This document shows positions 16,601-25,260 of a stretch of 25,290 nt of DNA, in pieces. Source of the stretch: a virus; the IMG/VR virus record IMGVR_UViG_3300047317_000531, positions 1-25,290 of that record, one strand, 5' to 3'. The position numbers and the translations under genes were made by a program. How positions within the stretch are numbered: position 1 is the stretch's first letter; the number at the start of each line of letters is the position of its first letter. The notes beneath the pieces were generated by a model that was not told where the DNA came from, ran no database searches, and saw nothing but the letters and a program-made list of their open reading frames with translations.

Positions 16601-17661
16601 CAGTGACCGCAGCAACCGTGACCGCAGATATCAACACTGTGAACCAGGTCATCACCGACAAGTACGCGATCTACGAGGGCGACTCGTGCGAACTGATCCG
16701 CGCCATCCCCGGCGACAGCGTCCATTTCGGAATTCACTCTCCGCCGTTCGAGGGTCTCTATAAATTTTCGAGCTTCGACCGAGACATCAGCAACAACGAA
16801 GGCTCTGGTTTCTGGACGCACTATGCGTTCCTGATTCAGGAACTCCTCCGCGTCACCAAGCCCGGTCGTATCCATTCCGTCCATTGCATGCAGCTGCCGA
16901 CAAGCAAGAGAAGAAACGGCTTCATCGGTATGCGCGACTTCCGCGGCGAGATCATTCGCGCCTACGAAGACGCCGGATGGATCTTCCATTCCGAAGTCTG
17001 CATCTGGAAAGACCCTGTCGTCGCGCAGCAGCGCACCAAGTCCATTCGACTGCTGCACAAGCAGGTCACGAAGGATAGCTGCATCAGCGGCCAGGGGCTT
17101 GCCGATTACATCGTTTCGTTCCGCAAGCCCGGTGAGAATATCGAGCCCGTCGACGGCATGTTTGATGCGTTCGTTGGTTCACAGGCCGGCGAAGATGGCG
17201 GCCTTGACGTTAGCCGCGAGGCTTACGATCGGCACGCGGCTGACACGATCGCCGAAGGCCGCACGCCTTGGAGCTTTGAGCAATGGCGTTCCGTGTTCGT
17301 CTGGCAGCGCTACGCGTCGCCGGTGTGGAGCGACATTCGTCAGACGCGCACCCTGCAATATCGTGGCGGCCGGGACGAGCAGGACGAGCAGCATATCTCG
17401 CCGCTGCAACTGGACGTGATCGAGCGGTGCATCGATCTGTGGAGCCTGCCTGGCGAAGTCGTTCTGACACCATTCCTTGGCATCGGCAGCGAGGTCTATT
17501 CCGCCGTCGAGATGGGTCGCATTGGCGTCGGGTTCGAGCTGAAACCTTCGTATTTCCGCCAAGCTGTCAAGAACATCGCAGCGCTTGGCACCAAGGAGCA
17601 GCCGGCCGCTGATCTGTTTGCTGCTGCCAACGACAATCAGCCGGTGCGGGTGGCTGCGTGA
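16597..17661 (+). CDS. Beta-class DNA methyltransferase (N4-cytosine or N6-adenine)
   Basis: A 354-residue protein. Motif IV HSPPFE lies near residues 47-52 and the SAM-binding motif I FLGIGSEVYSAVEMGRIGVG near 293-312, the order of the beta class. SPPF is most often seen in N4-cytosine enzymes, but phage members of both kinds exist. The region between (about 90-280) would hold the target-recognition part. There is no restriction endonuclease beside it, so it may protect phage DNA or act with the SNF2-type protein. The C-terminus is AANDNQPVRVAA, strikingly like an alphaproteobacterial ssrA tag. AGGAGG precedes the ATG, which overlaps the previous stop. Confidence 0.88.
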   Translation: MTVTAATVTADINTVNQVITDKYAIYEGDSCELIRAIPGDSVHFGIHSPPFEGLYKFSSFDRDISNNEGSGFWTHYAFLIQELLRVTKPGRIHSVHCMQLPTSKRRNGFIGMRDFRGEIIRAYEDAGWIFHSEVCIWKDPVVAQQRTKSIRLLHKQVTKDSCISGQGLADYIVSFRKPGENIEPVDGMFDAFVGSQAGEDGGLDVSREAYDRHAADTIAEGRTPWSFEQWRSVFVWQRYASPVWSDIRQTRTLQYRGGRDEQDEQHISPLQLDVIERCIDLWSLPGEVVLTPFLGIGSEVYSAVEMGRIGVGFELKPSYFRQAVKNIAALGTKEQPAADLFAAANDNQPVRVAA

Positions 17662-18362
17662 CCATCCACTACCACGGAACGCCAATCACCCCTCGTTCCG
17701 AACTCGTTAAGATGGCGGGCAAGTGCTTCTTCGTGTCCTTCGCCAATCCGGGCGACGCTGAATGGTGCTTGGCCAATGGCCAGTCTGTCGGGTGGGACAA
17801 TGGCGGATACCCAGCCTTCACTCAAGGCAAGCCCATCACAGATTGGAAGCCATACTACAGATGGGTTGAACAGAAACTTGGCCATCCGCACTGGGCGGTT
17901 GTCCCGGACGTGATTGGCGGCGCCGTTGAGGAGCAGCGGGAACTTGTTGCTCAGTGGCCTTTTCCCAAAGAACTATCCGCTCCCGTTTGGCACACAGGCT
18001 TGCCGATCGATTACCTACTCGAGCTCGCCGACAATTGGCCGAAAGTCTGCTTTGGGTCGTCTGGACAGTATTGGCAGGTGGGCTCTGACAAGTGGGCAAG
18101 AAGAACGGACGAGGCATTCAATGCCCTTGAAAGCCGAAGGCTAAGACCTTGGGTGCATATGCTGCGCGGCCTTGCTGTTTGCGGGGATATCTGGCCGTTC
18201 GCCAGCGCCGACAGCACTAACATAGCCAGGAACTTTAAGAACAAAGGAAGTGAGGTGTGCCCGGAAAGGATGGCCCGCCGTATCGACGCAGTTCAGTGCC
18301 CAGTCAAATGGATAATGAAAACCAACCACCACGAAGGAGACCTATTCGATGTCGCAGCTTAA
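17658..18362 (+). CDS. TGT/DpdA-like protein, possible 7-deazaguanine transferase
   Basis: A 234-residue protein from a GTG overlapping the previous stop. Motifs: IHYHGTPITP (N-terminus), SVGWDNGGYPAF (about 43-54), VVPDVIGG, PVWHTG, KVCFGSSGQYW (about 129-139), HMLRGLAV and FASADSTNIARN (about 179-190). The spacing and the DNGG, G-S-S-G and A-D-S-T elements are reminiscent of the TIM barrel of tRNA-guanine transglycosylases and their DNA-acting relatives (DpdA), though the protein is shorter than TGT. DpdA enzymes swap guanine in DNA for a 7-deazaguanine base. The nearby YhhQ-type transporter supports this. Its C-terminal codons also encode the CACCACGAAGGAGAC leader of the next gene. Family call is moderate; activity is inferred. 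Confidence 0.55.
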   Translation: MTIHYHGTPITPRSELVKMAGKCFFVSFANPGDAEWCLANGQSVGWDNGGYPAFTQGKPITDWKPYYRWVEQKLGHPHWAVVPDVIGGAVEEQRELVAQWPFPKELSAPVWHTGLPIDYLLELADNWPKVCFGSSGQYWQVGSDKWARRTDEAFNALESRRLRPWVHMLRGLAVCGDIWPFASADSTNIARNFKNKGSEVCPERMARRIDAVQCPVKWIMKTNHHEGDLFDVAA

Positions 18363-18744
18363 GACCCTTTACCTATGCGGGCCGATCAATGGATGCACTG
18401 ACGAGGAGTGCAAGGACTGGCGCGAGTTCGTGACCGCCAACTGGGATGGCCGCACGCTTGATCCAATGCGTCGCGACTATCGCGGCAAGGAAGACGATTC
18501 CGTCAAAGAGATCGTTGAACTCGACAAGATCGACGTTATCGAGTCGGACGTAATTCTGGTAAATTACGACAAGCCGAGCGTCGGTACGTCAATGGAAATC
18601 CTCTACGCATTCGAGCGCGGCAAACTTGTCGTGGTCGTGGCCAAAGACGGGACGCGCATCTCGCCATGGATGCGCTACCACAGCCACAAGATCGCACCAT
18701 CGTTCGAAGCCGCGATGACTTACGTCAGGGAGTTCTACGCATGA
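18349..18744 (+). CDS. Nucleoside 2-deoxyribosyltransferase-like protein
   Basis: A 131-residue Rossmann-like protein. LYLCGPINGCTDEECKDWRE (residues 7-26) holds the family's GPI motif. DPMRRDYRG lies in the middle, and DVILVNYDKPSVGTSMEILY (about 65-84) carries the usual catalytic-type GTSME region. These match the 2-deoxyribosyltransferase-like group common in phages. It may transfer or remove the base of a deoxynucleoside. It sits between the TGT-like gene and the queuosine-precursor transporter, so a role in handling an unusual base is attractive but unproved. AAGGAGACCTATTCG precedes the ATG, 14 bases inside the previous gene. Confidence 0.75.
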   Translation: MSQLKTLYLCGPINGCTDEECKDWREFVTANWDGRTLDPMRRDYRGKEDDSVKEIVELDKIDVIESDVILVNYDKPSVGTSMEILYAFERGKLVVVVAKDGTRISPWMRYHSHKIAPSFEAAMTYVREFYA

Positions 18745-19274
18745 GCAAGTGGATATCGTTCGTCCTGTTCATCCTGACTATCCCTGCAGCCAACTGGATG
18801 ATTGGCAACGTCGGCACCATGTGCATTCCGAATGGACCGTGCATGATCCCGGTGGGCTTAGGCCTTCTGGCACCTAGCGGTGTCCTGCTCGTAGGTATCG
18901 CTATGGTGCTGCGCGACTGGATCCACGAACAGCACGGAACACGCGGGGCGCTGGTAGCCATAGCGATTGGCGGCGGACTATCGGCGCTATTTGCTCCGCC
19001 TGCGCTTGTGGTGGCCTCTGTGGCTGCCTTCATGCTGGCTGAAGTTGCCGACCTTGCAGTCTACATCCCGTTGCGAAAGCGTGGACTTGGTCTGGCAGTC
19101 CTCGGCAGTGGACTGATCGGATCCATCGTCGATAGCGCAATCTTCTTGCTTCTCGCGTTCGGCAGCCTTCAGTTCATCGAAGGCCAGATACTCGGCAAGC
19201 TATGGATGAGCGCTCTGGCGTTCGGCTTTCTGCATGTTGCCTCCATCCGCCGCGTGACTGCAGCCCATGGCTAA
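18741..19274 (+). CDS. VUT/YhhQ-family transporter for a queuosine precursor
   Basis: A 177-residue membrane protein starting by ATGA overlap. It has a signature IGNVGTMCIPNGPCMIPVGL (about 24-43), APSGVLLVGIAMVLRDWIHE, a further membrane helix with LFAPPALVVASVAAFMLAEV and ADLAVYIPLRKRG, then IVDSAIFLLLAFGSL. Five or six membrane helices are expected. These features fit the VUT (YhhQ) family, whose studied members import the 7-deazaguanine precursors preQ0/preQ1. In a phage early operon beside a TGT-like gene it would supply the base for DNA modification. Substrate is inferred from the family. Confidence 0.82.
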   Translation: MSKWISFVLFILTIPAANWMIGNVGTMCIPNGPCMIPVGLGLLAPSGVLLVGIAMVLRDWIHEQHGTRGALVAIAIGGGLSALFAPPALVVASVAAFMLAEVADLAVYIPLRKRGLGLAVLGSGLIGSIVDSAIFLLLAFGSLQFIEGQILGKLWMSALAFGFLHVASIRRVTAAHG

Positions 19275-19650: not shown

Positions 19651-20315
19651 TGCGGGCGATGAAGGTTCTTGTCGCATGCGAGTTCTCGGGGACCGTTCGC
19701 AATGCGTTCCTCGACCGCGGACATGACGCATGGTCTTGCGATCTGCTCCCAAGCGAGGATGGAAGCAATCGTCATATTCAAGGCGACGCTCGCGATCTAC
19801 TTAACGATGGATGGGATTTGCTTATGGTAGCGCATCCGCCTTGCACGCGGCTCTGCAACAGCGGCGTTCGCTGGCTATCTGCGCCTCCTCCGGGGCGCAC
19901 AGCAAGCGACATGTGGGCTGAACTTGATGAGGGTGCGGAGCTGTTTTCTGCGTTCTGGAACGCGCCAATCGAACGTATCGCGATCGAGAACCCTGTCATG
20001 CACAAGCACGCGAAGAAGCGGATCATAAACTATCGTGATTTCGCGCAGAGCGTACAACCTTGGCAGTATGGTCACCCTGAAACCAAGCGCACCTGCCTTT
20101 GGCTCAAGAACCTGCCGAAGCTAACGCCCACCAAAGTTGTCGACGGACGTATCGCCCGGGTGCATCGAATGCCACCCGGGCCAGACAGGTGGCGAGAACG
20201 GTCAAGGTTTTTCGCCGGAATTGCCAACGCGATGGCTGACCAGTGGCCGCGTTCATTCTTTGGTGGCCTGCCGCAGTATGCCAACGACAACAATAATCTG
20301 GAGATTGCAGCCTAA
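19650..20315 (+). CDS. C5-cytosine-methyltransferase-like phage protein
   Basis: A 221-residue protein. GGGAGG lies 10 bases before the ATG at 19650. MKVLVACEFSGTVRNAFLDR resembles the SAM-binding motif I, and WSCDLLPSE fits the acidic end of the second strand. MVAHPPCTRLCNSGVRWL carries a Pro-Pro-Cys like catalytic motif IV, and ERIAIENPVM resembles motif VI (ENV). The protein is much shorter than C5 methyltransferases and has no clear target-recognition domain. So it may be a minimal enzyme acting on a nucleotide or other substrate. It ends YANDNNNLEIAA, another ssrA-like tail. It overlaps the primase gene by one base. Confidence 0.65.
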   Translation: MRAMKVLVACEFSGTVRNAFLDRGHDAWSCDLLPSEDGSNRHIQGDARDLLNDGWDLLMVAHPPCTRLCNSGVRWLSAPPPGRTASDMWAELDEGAELFSAFWNAPIERIAIENPVMHKHAKKRIINYRDFAQSVQPWQYGHPETKRTCLWLKNLPKLTPTKVVDGRIARVHRMPPGPDRWRERSRFFAGIANAMADQWPRSFFGGLPQYANDNNNLEIAA

Positions 20316-22480
20316 TGGCCAAAATAAACTTCAAGCCACCACGTTCTGTGTCAGACAGAGCTCCAATCGATGTTGCCCGCTCGTATATCGCAGCGGGCAT
20401 TCCCGTTTTTCCATGTCGAGAAGCAACGATCGAAGGTGTCGACCACACCACCGGCGAGTTAATAGAGTTCGCCGAGAAGTCGCCGTATACAGCATACGGT
20501 CTCAAAGACGCCACCACGTCGGCCCGCATCATCAATATTTGGTTCGGCGACCGGCACGCAGGCGCGGCCATAGGTGTACCGACTGGCGAGAAATTGGCGG
20601 GATGGGTTTTGGACCTAGATCGCCACGACGACAGGGACGGCCATAAATGGCTGGAGGCCATGGAGGCGCAGCACGGCCAGCTACCGCCAACGGCTCGCGC
20701 ATCTACGGCTAACGGCGGTACGCATATATTCTTCAAGCATGTCGTCGGCATAAGGAACCGCGCTGCAATTGCACCAGGTGTCGATACGCGTGGCGACGGT
20801 GGCTATATTCTGGCGCCTGGATCCGTGATGGCGGACGGTCGACGCTATGTGTGGAAGGATTGGGAGGAAGATGGCATTCCTGAATTCGCGGATGCTCCGG
20901 CGTGGCTTGTCGACATGGTCATCACGAAGGCGCCTGCCGCAGTTGAGCGCGTCAAATCCGAATATACCTACAGGCCGGCAGATGATACCGGTGCAACAGC
21001 ATACGCGTCGAAGTCCTTCACGATGGAACTCGACAAGCTGATATCTGCGCCAAAGGGTCAACGCGGCCAGCAGCTATTCGCCAGCGCCTGCAATATCGGC
21101 GAATTCGTCGCCGGCGGATACATCTCACGATCGGAAGCGGAGGCCGGATTGTTCGATGCAGCAACTTCGAATGGCCTTGTTGGAACCGACGGTGATCGGA
21201 AGACTTGGGATAAAATAAAGCGCGGCCTCGACAAGACGGCCAATTCGCCTCGACAAATACCTGAACGAGCCAACGACAATGGTTCTGATCCTGAGGATTT
21301 GAAAGCCTTCGCCGAGCGGAATAGAGCTAAGAAGGACGCCCCGTCCGCAGCTACGGTTGGCGTGTCACCAACCGGTGACATTGCGGCCGAAGCAACAGCC
21401 ACACCCAAGAAGCGCGAGCGGTTCGAATGGACATGGTTCGACGAGATCGAGGAGGGCAAGCCGAAGGAAACAATCCTTAAAGGTTGGCTAGGCGTTGGCG
21501 AGTTCACGACCATCTCAGGCTTGCCTGGCACCGGCAAGAGCGTGGTGGTCACCGACATAGCCTGCCACATAGCTGCCGGCATGGAGTGGCACGGCAAGAA
21601 GGTCAAGCAGGGCCTCGTGGTCTACGTCGCAGCTGAGCGCAAGAAGCTGACGGAGCGGCGAATGATGGCCTTTCGCAAGCACCATGACGTACACAACGTG
21701 CCACTCTTGGTTATCGGTGGACGGCTCGATTTCACAAAAGACCTGAAAGACGCTCGAGATTTGATCGCCGCTATCCGTGAGGCCGAGACTATCACGGAGA
21801 TGAAGTGCGTCTGGGTTATCATCGACACGCTCACACGTGTGTTTGGTGGTGGCGACCAGAACGCCAGCAAGGACATGACGCGGTTCGTCCAGTCGTGTGA
21901 CGAGATCCTGGCGGAGACGAAAGCGCACGTCACAGCCATTCATCACAGTGCATGGAGCGGCGAGCGAGGTAAGGGGGCCATCGATCTTGATGGCGCCGTG
22001 GACGCCAGCTTCATGGTCAAAAAGGAGGGCAATAAGCACAGGCTTGTCTGCGATGGCACCAACGACGGCGAGGAGGGTGACGTCCTGGCCTTCAGCATGA
22101 AGTCTGTCCCGATCGGCGTTGACGAGGATGGAGAGGCCACCACGGCGCCGGTGGTGGTGCTGGCGGAGGAGACGCAGATGCGGTCTGGCTCTGACATGCA
22201 GAAGAGCAAGAACGCAAGGGCGTTTGATCTTCTCGTGGCACTGACTGAGCGTGACGGGGTTGATCCGGAGACGTCAGGCTATCCATCTGGTGCGAGGGTA
22301 GTGTCGCCTGAGACGTGGAAGGCCGCGGTTCACGCCGACGACAGCGATCGCATGTCACCTGAGGCGAAGAAGAAGCGGTTCCAGCGCGCCAAGAAAGACC
22401 TTCTTGCCGATGGCCTGATTGGCGAAAATCCTCAGTGGGTATGGGTCATTCCGACGGATGCGGACGAAGACGAAGAATAG
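20315..22480 (+). CDS. Primase-polymerase plus RepA-like helicase (replication initiator)
   Basis: A 721-residue protein. The N-terminal bifunctional primase/polymerase domain (about 20-205) has IPVFPCRE, GLKDATTS, IGVPTG, VLDLDRHDD with acidic active-site residues, TANGGTHIFF and RGDGGYILAPGS. After an Ala/Pro-rich linker with ANDN (about 325) comes a RecA-like helicase domain with Walker A SGLPGTGKS (about 402-410), VVYVAAER, VWVIIDTLTR as Walker B, and AIHHSAWSG. The last 100 residues look like a winged helix (SPEAKKKRFQRAKKDLLADG). This matches phage and plasmid primase-helicases that start replication. A repeat array typical of an origin begins six bases after its stop. Confidence 0.88.
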   Translation: MAKINFKPPRSVSDRAPIDVARSYIAAGIPVFPCREATIEGVDHTTGELIEFAEKSPYTAYGLKDATTSARIINIWFGDRHAGAAIGVPTGEKLAGWVLDLDRHDDRDGHKWLEAMEAQHGQLPPTARASTANGGTHIFFKHVVGIRNRAAIAPGVDTRGDGGYILAPGSVMADGRRYVWKDWEEDGIPEFADAPAWLVDMVITKAPAAVERVKSEYTYRPADDTGATAYASKSFTMELDKLISAPKGQRGQQLFASACNIGEFVAGGYISRSEAEAGLFDAATSNGLVGTDGDRKTWDKIKRGLDKTANSPRQIPERANDNGSDPEDLKAFAERNRAKKDAPSAATVGVSPTGDIAAEATATPKKRERFEWTWFDEIEEGKPKETILKGWLGVGEFTTISGLPGTGKSVVVTDIACHIAAGMEWHGKKVKQGLVVYVAAERKKLTERRMMAFRKHHDVHNVPLLVIGGRLDFTKDLKDARDLIAAIREAETITEMKCVWVIIDTLTRVFGGGDQNASKDMTRFVQSCDEILAETKAHVTAIHHSAWSGERGKGAIDLDGAVDASFMVKKEGNKHRLVCDGTNDGEEGDVLAFSMKSVPIGVDEDGEATTAPVVVLAEETQMRSGSDMQKSKNARAFDLLVALTERDGVDPETSGYPSGARVVSPETWKAAVHADDSDRMSPEAKKKRFQRAKKDLLADGLIGENPQWVWVIPTDADEDEE

Positions 22481-22930
22481 CTACCGGGACAAGCGGGACA
22501 TTCCGGGACAAATTGGCAATGTCCCCAACGATATCAAATGCTTACGGTATATCGGGACAAAACGATATGTCCCGATATCATACCAAAGGTTGAGCGGAGT
22601 GAAAAATACAGAAAACACCGGGACAATCGTATTTTGCTAATATACAGTTTGTCCCGGCATTTGTCCCGATACGAAACGTGAACATTCAGGGGCGGGACAA
22701 CCGGGACAAACCGGGACAAAAACGCAATGTCCCCAACAATATCAAAGACTTAGACGAAATCAGGACATTTCACTTTTATCTATTTTGTCCCTCGAACATC
22801 CTAACGGGACAAAAACCCCACACCCCTTTAGGGGTGGGTGTTGTCCCGGTGTTTTGTCCCGGTATTGTTTTGAAGAAAAATAGCAGCGGAAATACCAGAC
22901 GGAAATAACCACCACCACATAGGAGACAGC
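22481..22930. repeat. GGGACA/TGTCCC array, candidate replication origin
   Basis: In 375 bases (22486-22860) there are 17 copies of GGGACA or its complement TGTCCC, eight in one orientation and nine in the other by my count within one copy. Triplets at 22486/22495/22505 and 22694/22703/22713 have 9-10 base spacing. A perfect inverted repeat (ATATCGGGACA at 22549-22559, TGTCCCGATAT at 22568-22578) is included. A 40-base unit at 22505-22545 recurs, imperfectly, at 22713-22753. A CACCCC-TTTA-GGGGTG hairpin lies near 22831-22846. The region is AT-richer than its neighbours and has no convincing gene. Position directly after the primase-helicase gene supports an iteron-type origin. Confidence 0.7.
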
Positions 22931-25184: not shown

Positions 25185-25260
25185 GCCAACATAGCTCAGT
25201 CGGAAGAGCGCCGTTTTTGTAATTCGGATGTCGCGGGTTCAACTCCTGCTGTTGGCTCCA
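25185..25260 (+). tRNA. tRNA-Thr (anticodon TGT), CCA encoded
   Basis: The 76 bases fold as a tRNA: acceptor GCCAACA/TGTTGGC, D stem GCTC/GAGC, T stem GCGGG/CCTGC (one G-U) with loop TTCAACT, and 3' TCCA encoded. The seven-base anticodon loop is TTTGTAA, giving TGT, which reads ACA (Thr). The anticodon stem CCGTT/TTCGG has only three good pairs, with two T-T mismatches next to the loop, so it may be a weak or altered tRNA. Confidence 0.8.

Follow-up and report, generated by a model that had tools for sequence, protein, structure and literature searches.

A short hexamer recurs in both orientations directly after a gene for a predicted primase-helicase of a virus, and this raises the questions of which protein reads the repeats and what they are for. 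The window, that is, the whole stretch of DNA analysed, is the 25,290-base virus record IMGVR_UViG_3300047317_000531.

The initiator gene and the repeat array

The following features, all on the plus strand, define the gene that precedes the array:

20315..22480, plus strand: initiator gene encoding 721 aa, with Prim-Pol, RepA-type helicase and winged helix (Pfam, PHROG, AlphaFold2)
22190..22450, plus strand: predicted C-terminal winged-helix domain, ~aa 626-712 (AlphaFold2 model of aa 616-721)
22358..22411, plus strand: predicted recognition helix, aa 682-699, the third helix (residues 67-84 of the AlphaFold2 model)
22382-22384, plus strand: codon of Q690, in the recognition helix; residue 690 covaries with the array unit

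Two Pfam domains, and only these, were found in the initiator protein: Prim-Pol (PF09250) at aa 21-197, with an E-value of 1.1e-29 and 104.4 bits against a curated cut-off of 22.8, and AAA_25, the RepA-like RecA-fold ATPase domain with its Walker A and conserved motifs, at aa 368-549 (1e-35). The protein also matches PHROG 906 (DNA polymerase/primase). The best solved relative of its helicase in a profile search is RSF1010 RepA (1G8Y, 5.1e-12), and a phmmer search of the PDB with the whole protein gave no hit. By its domain, the helicase belongs to the RepA-type hexameric-helicase family and is predicted to form a ring. An earlier sequence-only reading of the window had remarked that the end of the gene looks like a winged helix, and AlphaFold2 predicts precisely such a domain there, with the order helix-helix-helix-strand-strand and a pLDDT of ~83-91 inside it. 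The matches returned by a fold search of this domain against the PDB are weak (all with E >=0.06) and come mostly from winged-helix proteins.

The array itself is organised as follows:

22485..22861, both orientations: array of 17 GGGACA/TGTCCC copies, with a unit of approximately CGGGACAA; putative origin iterons, based on sequence counts and on the conserved place in the family
22485..22559, plus strand: module copy 1, with three direct units (9 and 10 bp spacing), one inverted unit, an IHF consensus and one direct unit
22549..22578, no strand: 11-bp perfect inverted repeat comprising two convergent units, ATATCGGGACA (22549-22559) and TGTCCCGATAT (22568-22578)
22693..22767, plus strand: module copy 2, with the layout of copy 1, its last unit degenerate; 80% identical to copy 1

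There are 17 exact copies of GGGACA/TGTCCC within 375 bp (22486-22860), nine in the plus and eight in the minus orientation, and an 18th, degenerate copy, AGGACA, at 22762-22767. In 2000 dinucleotide shuffles of the array region, the mean was 0.43 copies and the maximum 3, and all other 375-bp stretches of the window hold at most 2. The dense array in both orientations that the sequence-only reading had described is thus far above the shuffled expectation, and its first copy (22486) does start, as was claimed, six bases past the stop of the primase-polymerase/helicase gene at 22480. We also located the paired same-orientation triplets with 9- and 10-base spacing (22486/22495/22505 and 22694/22703/22713) and the 11-base perfect inverted repeat, and the spacers said to be AT-rich have 52-74% AT. 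The repeated unit reported as 40 bases exists but is longer, since the module that occurs twice, with 22485-22559 as the reference copy, spans 75 nt. The GC content of the array region is 46%, compared with 55-63% for nearby coding windows.

Conservation of the array and covariation of its unit with the winged helix

The sequence-only reading had named a search beside homologous genes, and loss of the array in relatives, as a check on its proposal. We find that the array keeps its place and that its unit is specific to the lineage. The Rhizobium phages 16-3 and RHph_X2_25, whose proteins are 71-73% identical to the initiator protein (71% for p101 of phage 16-3), have an array in the same place with the unit GCGTGACA, and a Roseobacter phage whose protein is 26% identical has the unit ACTACAAA there. 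Of the helicase loci sampled, which are mainly alphaproteobacterial, 118 of 140 have an array at most 450 bp from the helicase stop, as judged against shuffled controls; arrays are present in 66 of 82 clusters formed at 90% identity, also with a shuffle control. When an array is defined as at least five copies of one 7-mer, counted without new shuffles, the 3' end of the helicase gene carries one in 85 of 118 clusters of phage and prophage relatives. The other 33 fall below five copies, and some of them have a winged-helix match (L013, L014 and L150). No 3' array accompanies the RepA-type helicases of L013, L014, L146 and L148-L150, some of which match the winged-helix profile. A scan of genome contigs returned nothing with one protein as the query and four with an alignment as the query.

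The units found by lineage include CGGGACA, CGTGACA (phage 16-3), CCAGACA, CCATACA, CCGGACA, CCGAACA and CGTAACA, together with others, and often have the form C-NNN-ACA. In L032, L033, L089 and L109, the array lies inside the 3' coding region of the helicase open reading frame, after the winged helix; both array and hairpin are within coding sequence in these loci, so that the repeats are translated. A short array at L022:6149-6260 mixes CCATACA and CCAGACA units and is a possible intermediate of a unit switch.

The differences between units were compared with those between the domains of the helicase proteins. For 16 close relatives, unit distance correlates with recognition-helix distance (r=0.745, p=0.0002) and with that of the whole winged-helix region (r=0.62), as opposed to r=0.02 for the helicase core and r=-0.08 for the Prim-Pol domain. 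The 44 loci with an F/W/Y-x-R helix (FxR) give a correlation of 0.42 between unit and helix and 0.01 between unit and core, and on the tree of the helicase core at least 24 changes of the unit triplet are counted. A GG(G/A) unit is present in 14 of 16 loci with Gln at position 690 and in 4 of 28 with other residues (Fisher 2.4e-6), in a test set that includes the first four loci examined, from which the Gln690 rule came. The Q690 class and the GG(G/A)ACA class shift together in 6-7 of 6-7 informative independent pairs and never in opposite directions (sign test p ~0.016), the clearest sister pair being L157 (FYR, CGTGACA) and L161 (FQR, CGGGACA). Exceptions to the rule are GGG units with W, N, K or A at this position, and GTA with YQR. 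This covariation of helix and unit supports specific binding, with the array units probably being read by the C-terminal winged helix of the helicase.

A different reader would be the primase. The Prim-Pol domain could recognise the units in single-stranded DNA and start primers there, as the PrimPol of phage NrS-1 does on TTTGGTTA or GTG(A/G); priming by that enzyme requires a template motif (PMC8718748; PMC7102993), the unit complement TTTGTCCCG loosely resembles TTTGGTTA, and the arrays use both strands. However, unit and Prim-Pol domain do not vary together, and arrays persist in the absence of this domain: one is kept in L105, where TOPRIM replaces Prim-Pol (with weaker TOPRIM matches in L159 and L041), and in L101, L108 and L142, whose proteins have no recognised primase domain. 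Conversely, where a Prim-Pol relative is found on a different helicase, 12 of 13 loci lack an array and one has it. Single-strand priming sites, the alternative mentioned in the sequence-only reading, are weakened because of these three observations. We dropped template recognition by Prim-Pol as the leading idea for the main function, and regard it as improbable. In L131, an array of eight GGTGGAA copies is found near the stop of a Prim-Pol gene whose helicase differs.

Origin-like anatomy and other readings of the array

The following features of the window bear on what the array may be used for:

22532..22544, plus strand: IHF-consensus site TATCAAATGCTTA, exact match to WATCAANNNNTTR
22740..22752, plus strand: IHF-consensus site TATCAAAGACTTA, exact match to WATCAANNNNTTR
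22805..22848, no strand: terminal palindrome, with convergent units at 22805-22811 and 22842-22848 around the stem CACCCC/GGGGTG (22821-22836) with a TTTA loop
22931..23422, plus strand: VRR-NUC-like nuclease gene (PF08774 below cut-off, PHROG 824), directly after the array

The hairpin CACCCC-TTTA-GGGGTG and the two exact IHF-consensus sites had escaped the sequence-only reading. As single-strand DNA, the terminal palindrome of the window has a fold z of -2.6. Across the family, a hairpin with an A/T loop occurs in 55 of 85 arrays, as compared with 29 of 1240 background segments of the same length (~2%). The most enriched 8-mer, obtained separately from the hairpin search, is CCTTTAGG, found in 26 of 85 arrays against 0.5 expected, and the CCTTTAGG-type hairpin in the arrays is flanked by inverted units. 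For adjacent units that point the same way, most distances (206 of 318) are in the range of 8-11 bp, or approximately one helical turn. The IHF consensus has a density of 0.69/kb in arrays against 0.042/kb elsewhere, a 16-fold difference, with flat scrambled controls; exact sites are confined to 18 of 85 arrays. The GC content is below that of the array's own locus in 76 of the 85 cases. Multiple short repeats beside an initiator gene and above chance, an AT-rich region and IHF-type sites are features expected of an iteron origin, and all are seen here. DnaA boxes, which are usual in theta plasmids and are not required by every iteron origin, show no enrichment: a single array of the 85 contains exact or near-consensus boxes. 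GC skew, another check named in the sequence-only reading, did not favour an origin and was uninformative as a marker in phage 16-3, where the cumulative skew has no switch at the array.

An array read by the winged helix could also serve regulation, since covariation tells who reads the repeats and not for what purpose. The winged helix would then bind to control transcription of its own gene or of the downstream nuclease gene, with no start of replication, and three promoter-like matches were found within the array against 0.8 expected. The position of the array argues against this operator role: it follows the helicase gene instead of preceding it, and in the four loci cited above it is inside the 3' coding region. 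Moreover, the many units, the hairpin and the IHF sites are kept regardless of the gene that follows, and the reader is a replicative helicase. We consider regulation alone unlikely. It is even harder to see the array as a transcription terminator accompanied by unrelated repeats. Although the window has four terminator-like calls against 1.0 expected, a T-run (at least 5 T in 8 bases) follows the hairpin in only 3 of 55 cases, the hairpin is within the coding region in L033, L089 and L109, and the covariation of unit and helix would be left unexplained; this reading is extremely improbable and was set aside on account of the T-runs. In the window, a T-run (TGGGGTTTTT) does follow the hairpin at 22821-22836 on the minus strand, with a terminator-like score, a feature that is not general in the family. 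An Rfam search of the window returned nothing but a tRNA.

The array could instead be a target of the nuclease encoded downstream, or a segregation or packaging site. The nuclease gene adjoins the array in 16 of 16 close relatives, and its divergence correlates with that of the unit (r=0.49), with a partial r=0.41 (p ~0.01) after controlling for the recognition helix. Nevertheless, a nuclease homologue is present in only 16 of 60 array loci with sufficient downstream sequence, the unit-helix correlation is still 0.72 after controlling for the nuclease, and the cos of phage 16-3 is a separate annotated site ~3.6 kb from the array. The covariation of nuclease and unit may reflect linkage, and the gene is probably a linked neighbour and not a part of the origin. 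We judge a nuclease target, or a segregation or packaging site, to be very improbable.

The proposed origin and known replication systems

Taken together, the comparisons favour the candidate origin put forward in the sequence-only reading, in which the array is read by the winged-helix end of the initiator: the array is conserved, and its unit follows the recognition helix. The array is most probably a phage replication origin whose iterons would be bound by the C-terminal winged helix of the adjacent helicase itself. Its place, the covariation of unit and helix, and the enrichment of hairpins and IHF sites are supported by comparison, and from them we infer binding, melting, loading, priming and the start of replication at this site. 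In the mechanism that we propose, each unit (approximately CGGGACAA) would be bound by the C-terminal winged helix of the upstream gene product, a single polypeptide that would combine a primase-polymerase, a RepA-type ring helicase and an origin-reading domain. Aided by IHF-type bending, copies of the protein would occupy neighbouring units of either orientation at a distance of about one helical turn. The bound copies would concentrate and assemble the helicase ring on AT-rich DNA close by and on the 3'-terminal CCTTTAGG hairpin of the array. This hairpin would be the likely place of loading or priming, and the Prim-Pol domain would prime after assembly of the ring.

The closest parallel in layout is offered by SaPI Rep and SCCmec Cch2, self-loading helicases whose C-terminal domain binds iterons directly downstream of their own genes (PMC7581432). 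They share with our system a helicase with a C-terminal domain for double-strand DNA binding (predicted in our case), short repeats downstream of the gene, and a primase that is fused or nearby (PMC7581432). They differ in being AAA+ helicases (DUF927 or D5/Primase_Cterm), whereas the one described here is of the RepA-type AAA_25, with a RecA fold, and the array of the window has units of ~7 bp in both orientations and the CCTTTAGG hairpin. The initiator would thus work like SaPI Rep and Cch2 without being a member of their family, as it has no DUF927 or D5/Primase_Cterm match. In RSF1010 (IncQ), a RepA relative of our helicase, an AEP primase and a hairpin are likewise involved, but primase, helicase and iteron binding are split over RepB', RepA and RepC, in place of one polypeptide (PMC4538821). 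The RSF1010 origin has a separate RepC, 20-bp iterons and the ssiA/ssiB hairpins, in contrast to units of ~7 bp, a winged helix fused to the helicase and a single hairpin within the array.

Phage P4, the precedent chosen in the sequence-only reading, is a fair one in function, but a better match is provided by SaPI Rep/Cch2 for the layout and by RSF1010 RepA for the helicase family. The helicase of P4 alpha belongs to superfamily 3. P4 alpha has primase, helicase and winged helix in one protein and an origin with repeats (PMC4234260); its primase is a TOPRIM, as compared with the Prim-Pol and RepA-type helicase described here. Prim-Pol, helicase and winged helix are also joined in ORF904 of pRN1, whose essential origin, with a stem-loop, is downstream of the gene (PMC4234260). 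The pRN1 system differs by its superfamily 3 helicase and by a stem-loop of ~100 nt without iterons, for which no specific protein binding was detected (PMC4234260). PrimQH and related AEP families have a similar domain content (Prim-Pol, RepA helicase and winged helix), and a 2018 survey suggested that the winged helices of these proteins recognise origins, none of which was named; that paper gives no origin, iterons or matching specificity (PMC5862659). The RepA of PLE, satellites of Vibrio cholerae, resembles our system in that it and its iterons make up a matched replication module subject to exchange and diversification; the iterons are three semi-palindromic sequences of ~30 bp (PMC8263062).

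More tentatively, these loci may represent a class of origins that is widespread among phages, prophages and related elements of alphaproteobacteria and that has no description in the open-access literature searched. The RepA-type helicase would be its own origin-recognition protein, the winged helix and the array would make up a specificity cassette that can be exchanged and evolves fast, its residue-to-base code being readable in part (for example Gln690 with GG(G/A)ACA), and the CCTTTAGG hairpin would be the site of ring loading or priming. A likely replication origin is obtained for 16-3, a long-studied Sinorhizobium phage, for which we found no earlier paper on the origin in the same literature. 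For many related phages and prophages, the rule would be to look for the origin directly after the RepA-type helicase gene. It also becomes testable how a helicase ring is directed to its own origin and loaded there when neither DnaA nor a separate loader takes part, and winged-helix DNA specificity could be learned from the numerous pairs of helix and unit that exist in nature.

Elsewhere in the window, a gene matching a phage queuine tRNA-ribosyltransferase family (PHROG 887) is clustered at 17658-19274 with matches to a Vut_1 vitamin-uptake transporter and a nucleoside 2-deoxyribosyltransferase, possibly as a module for 7-deazaguanine DNA modification or precursor uptake. A tRNA-Thr gene (anticodon TGT) is located at 25185-25260, at the end of the phage contig.
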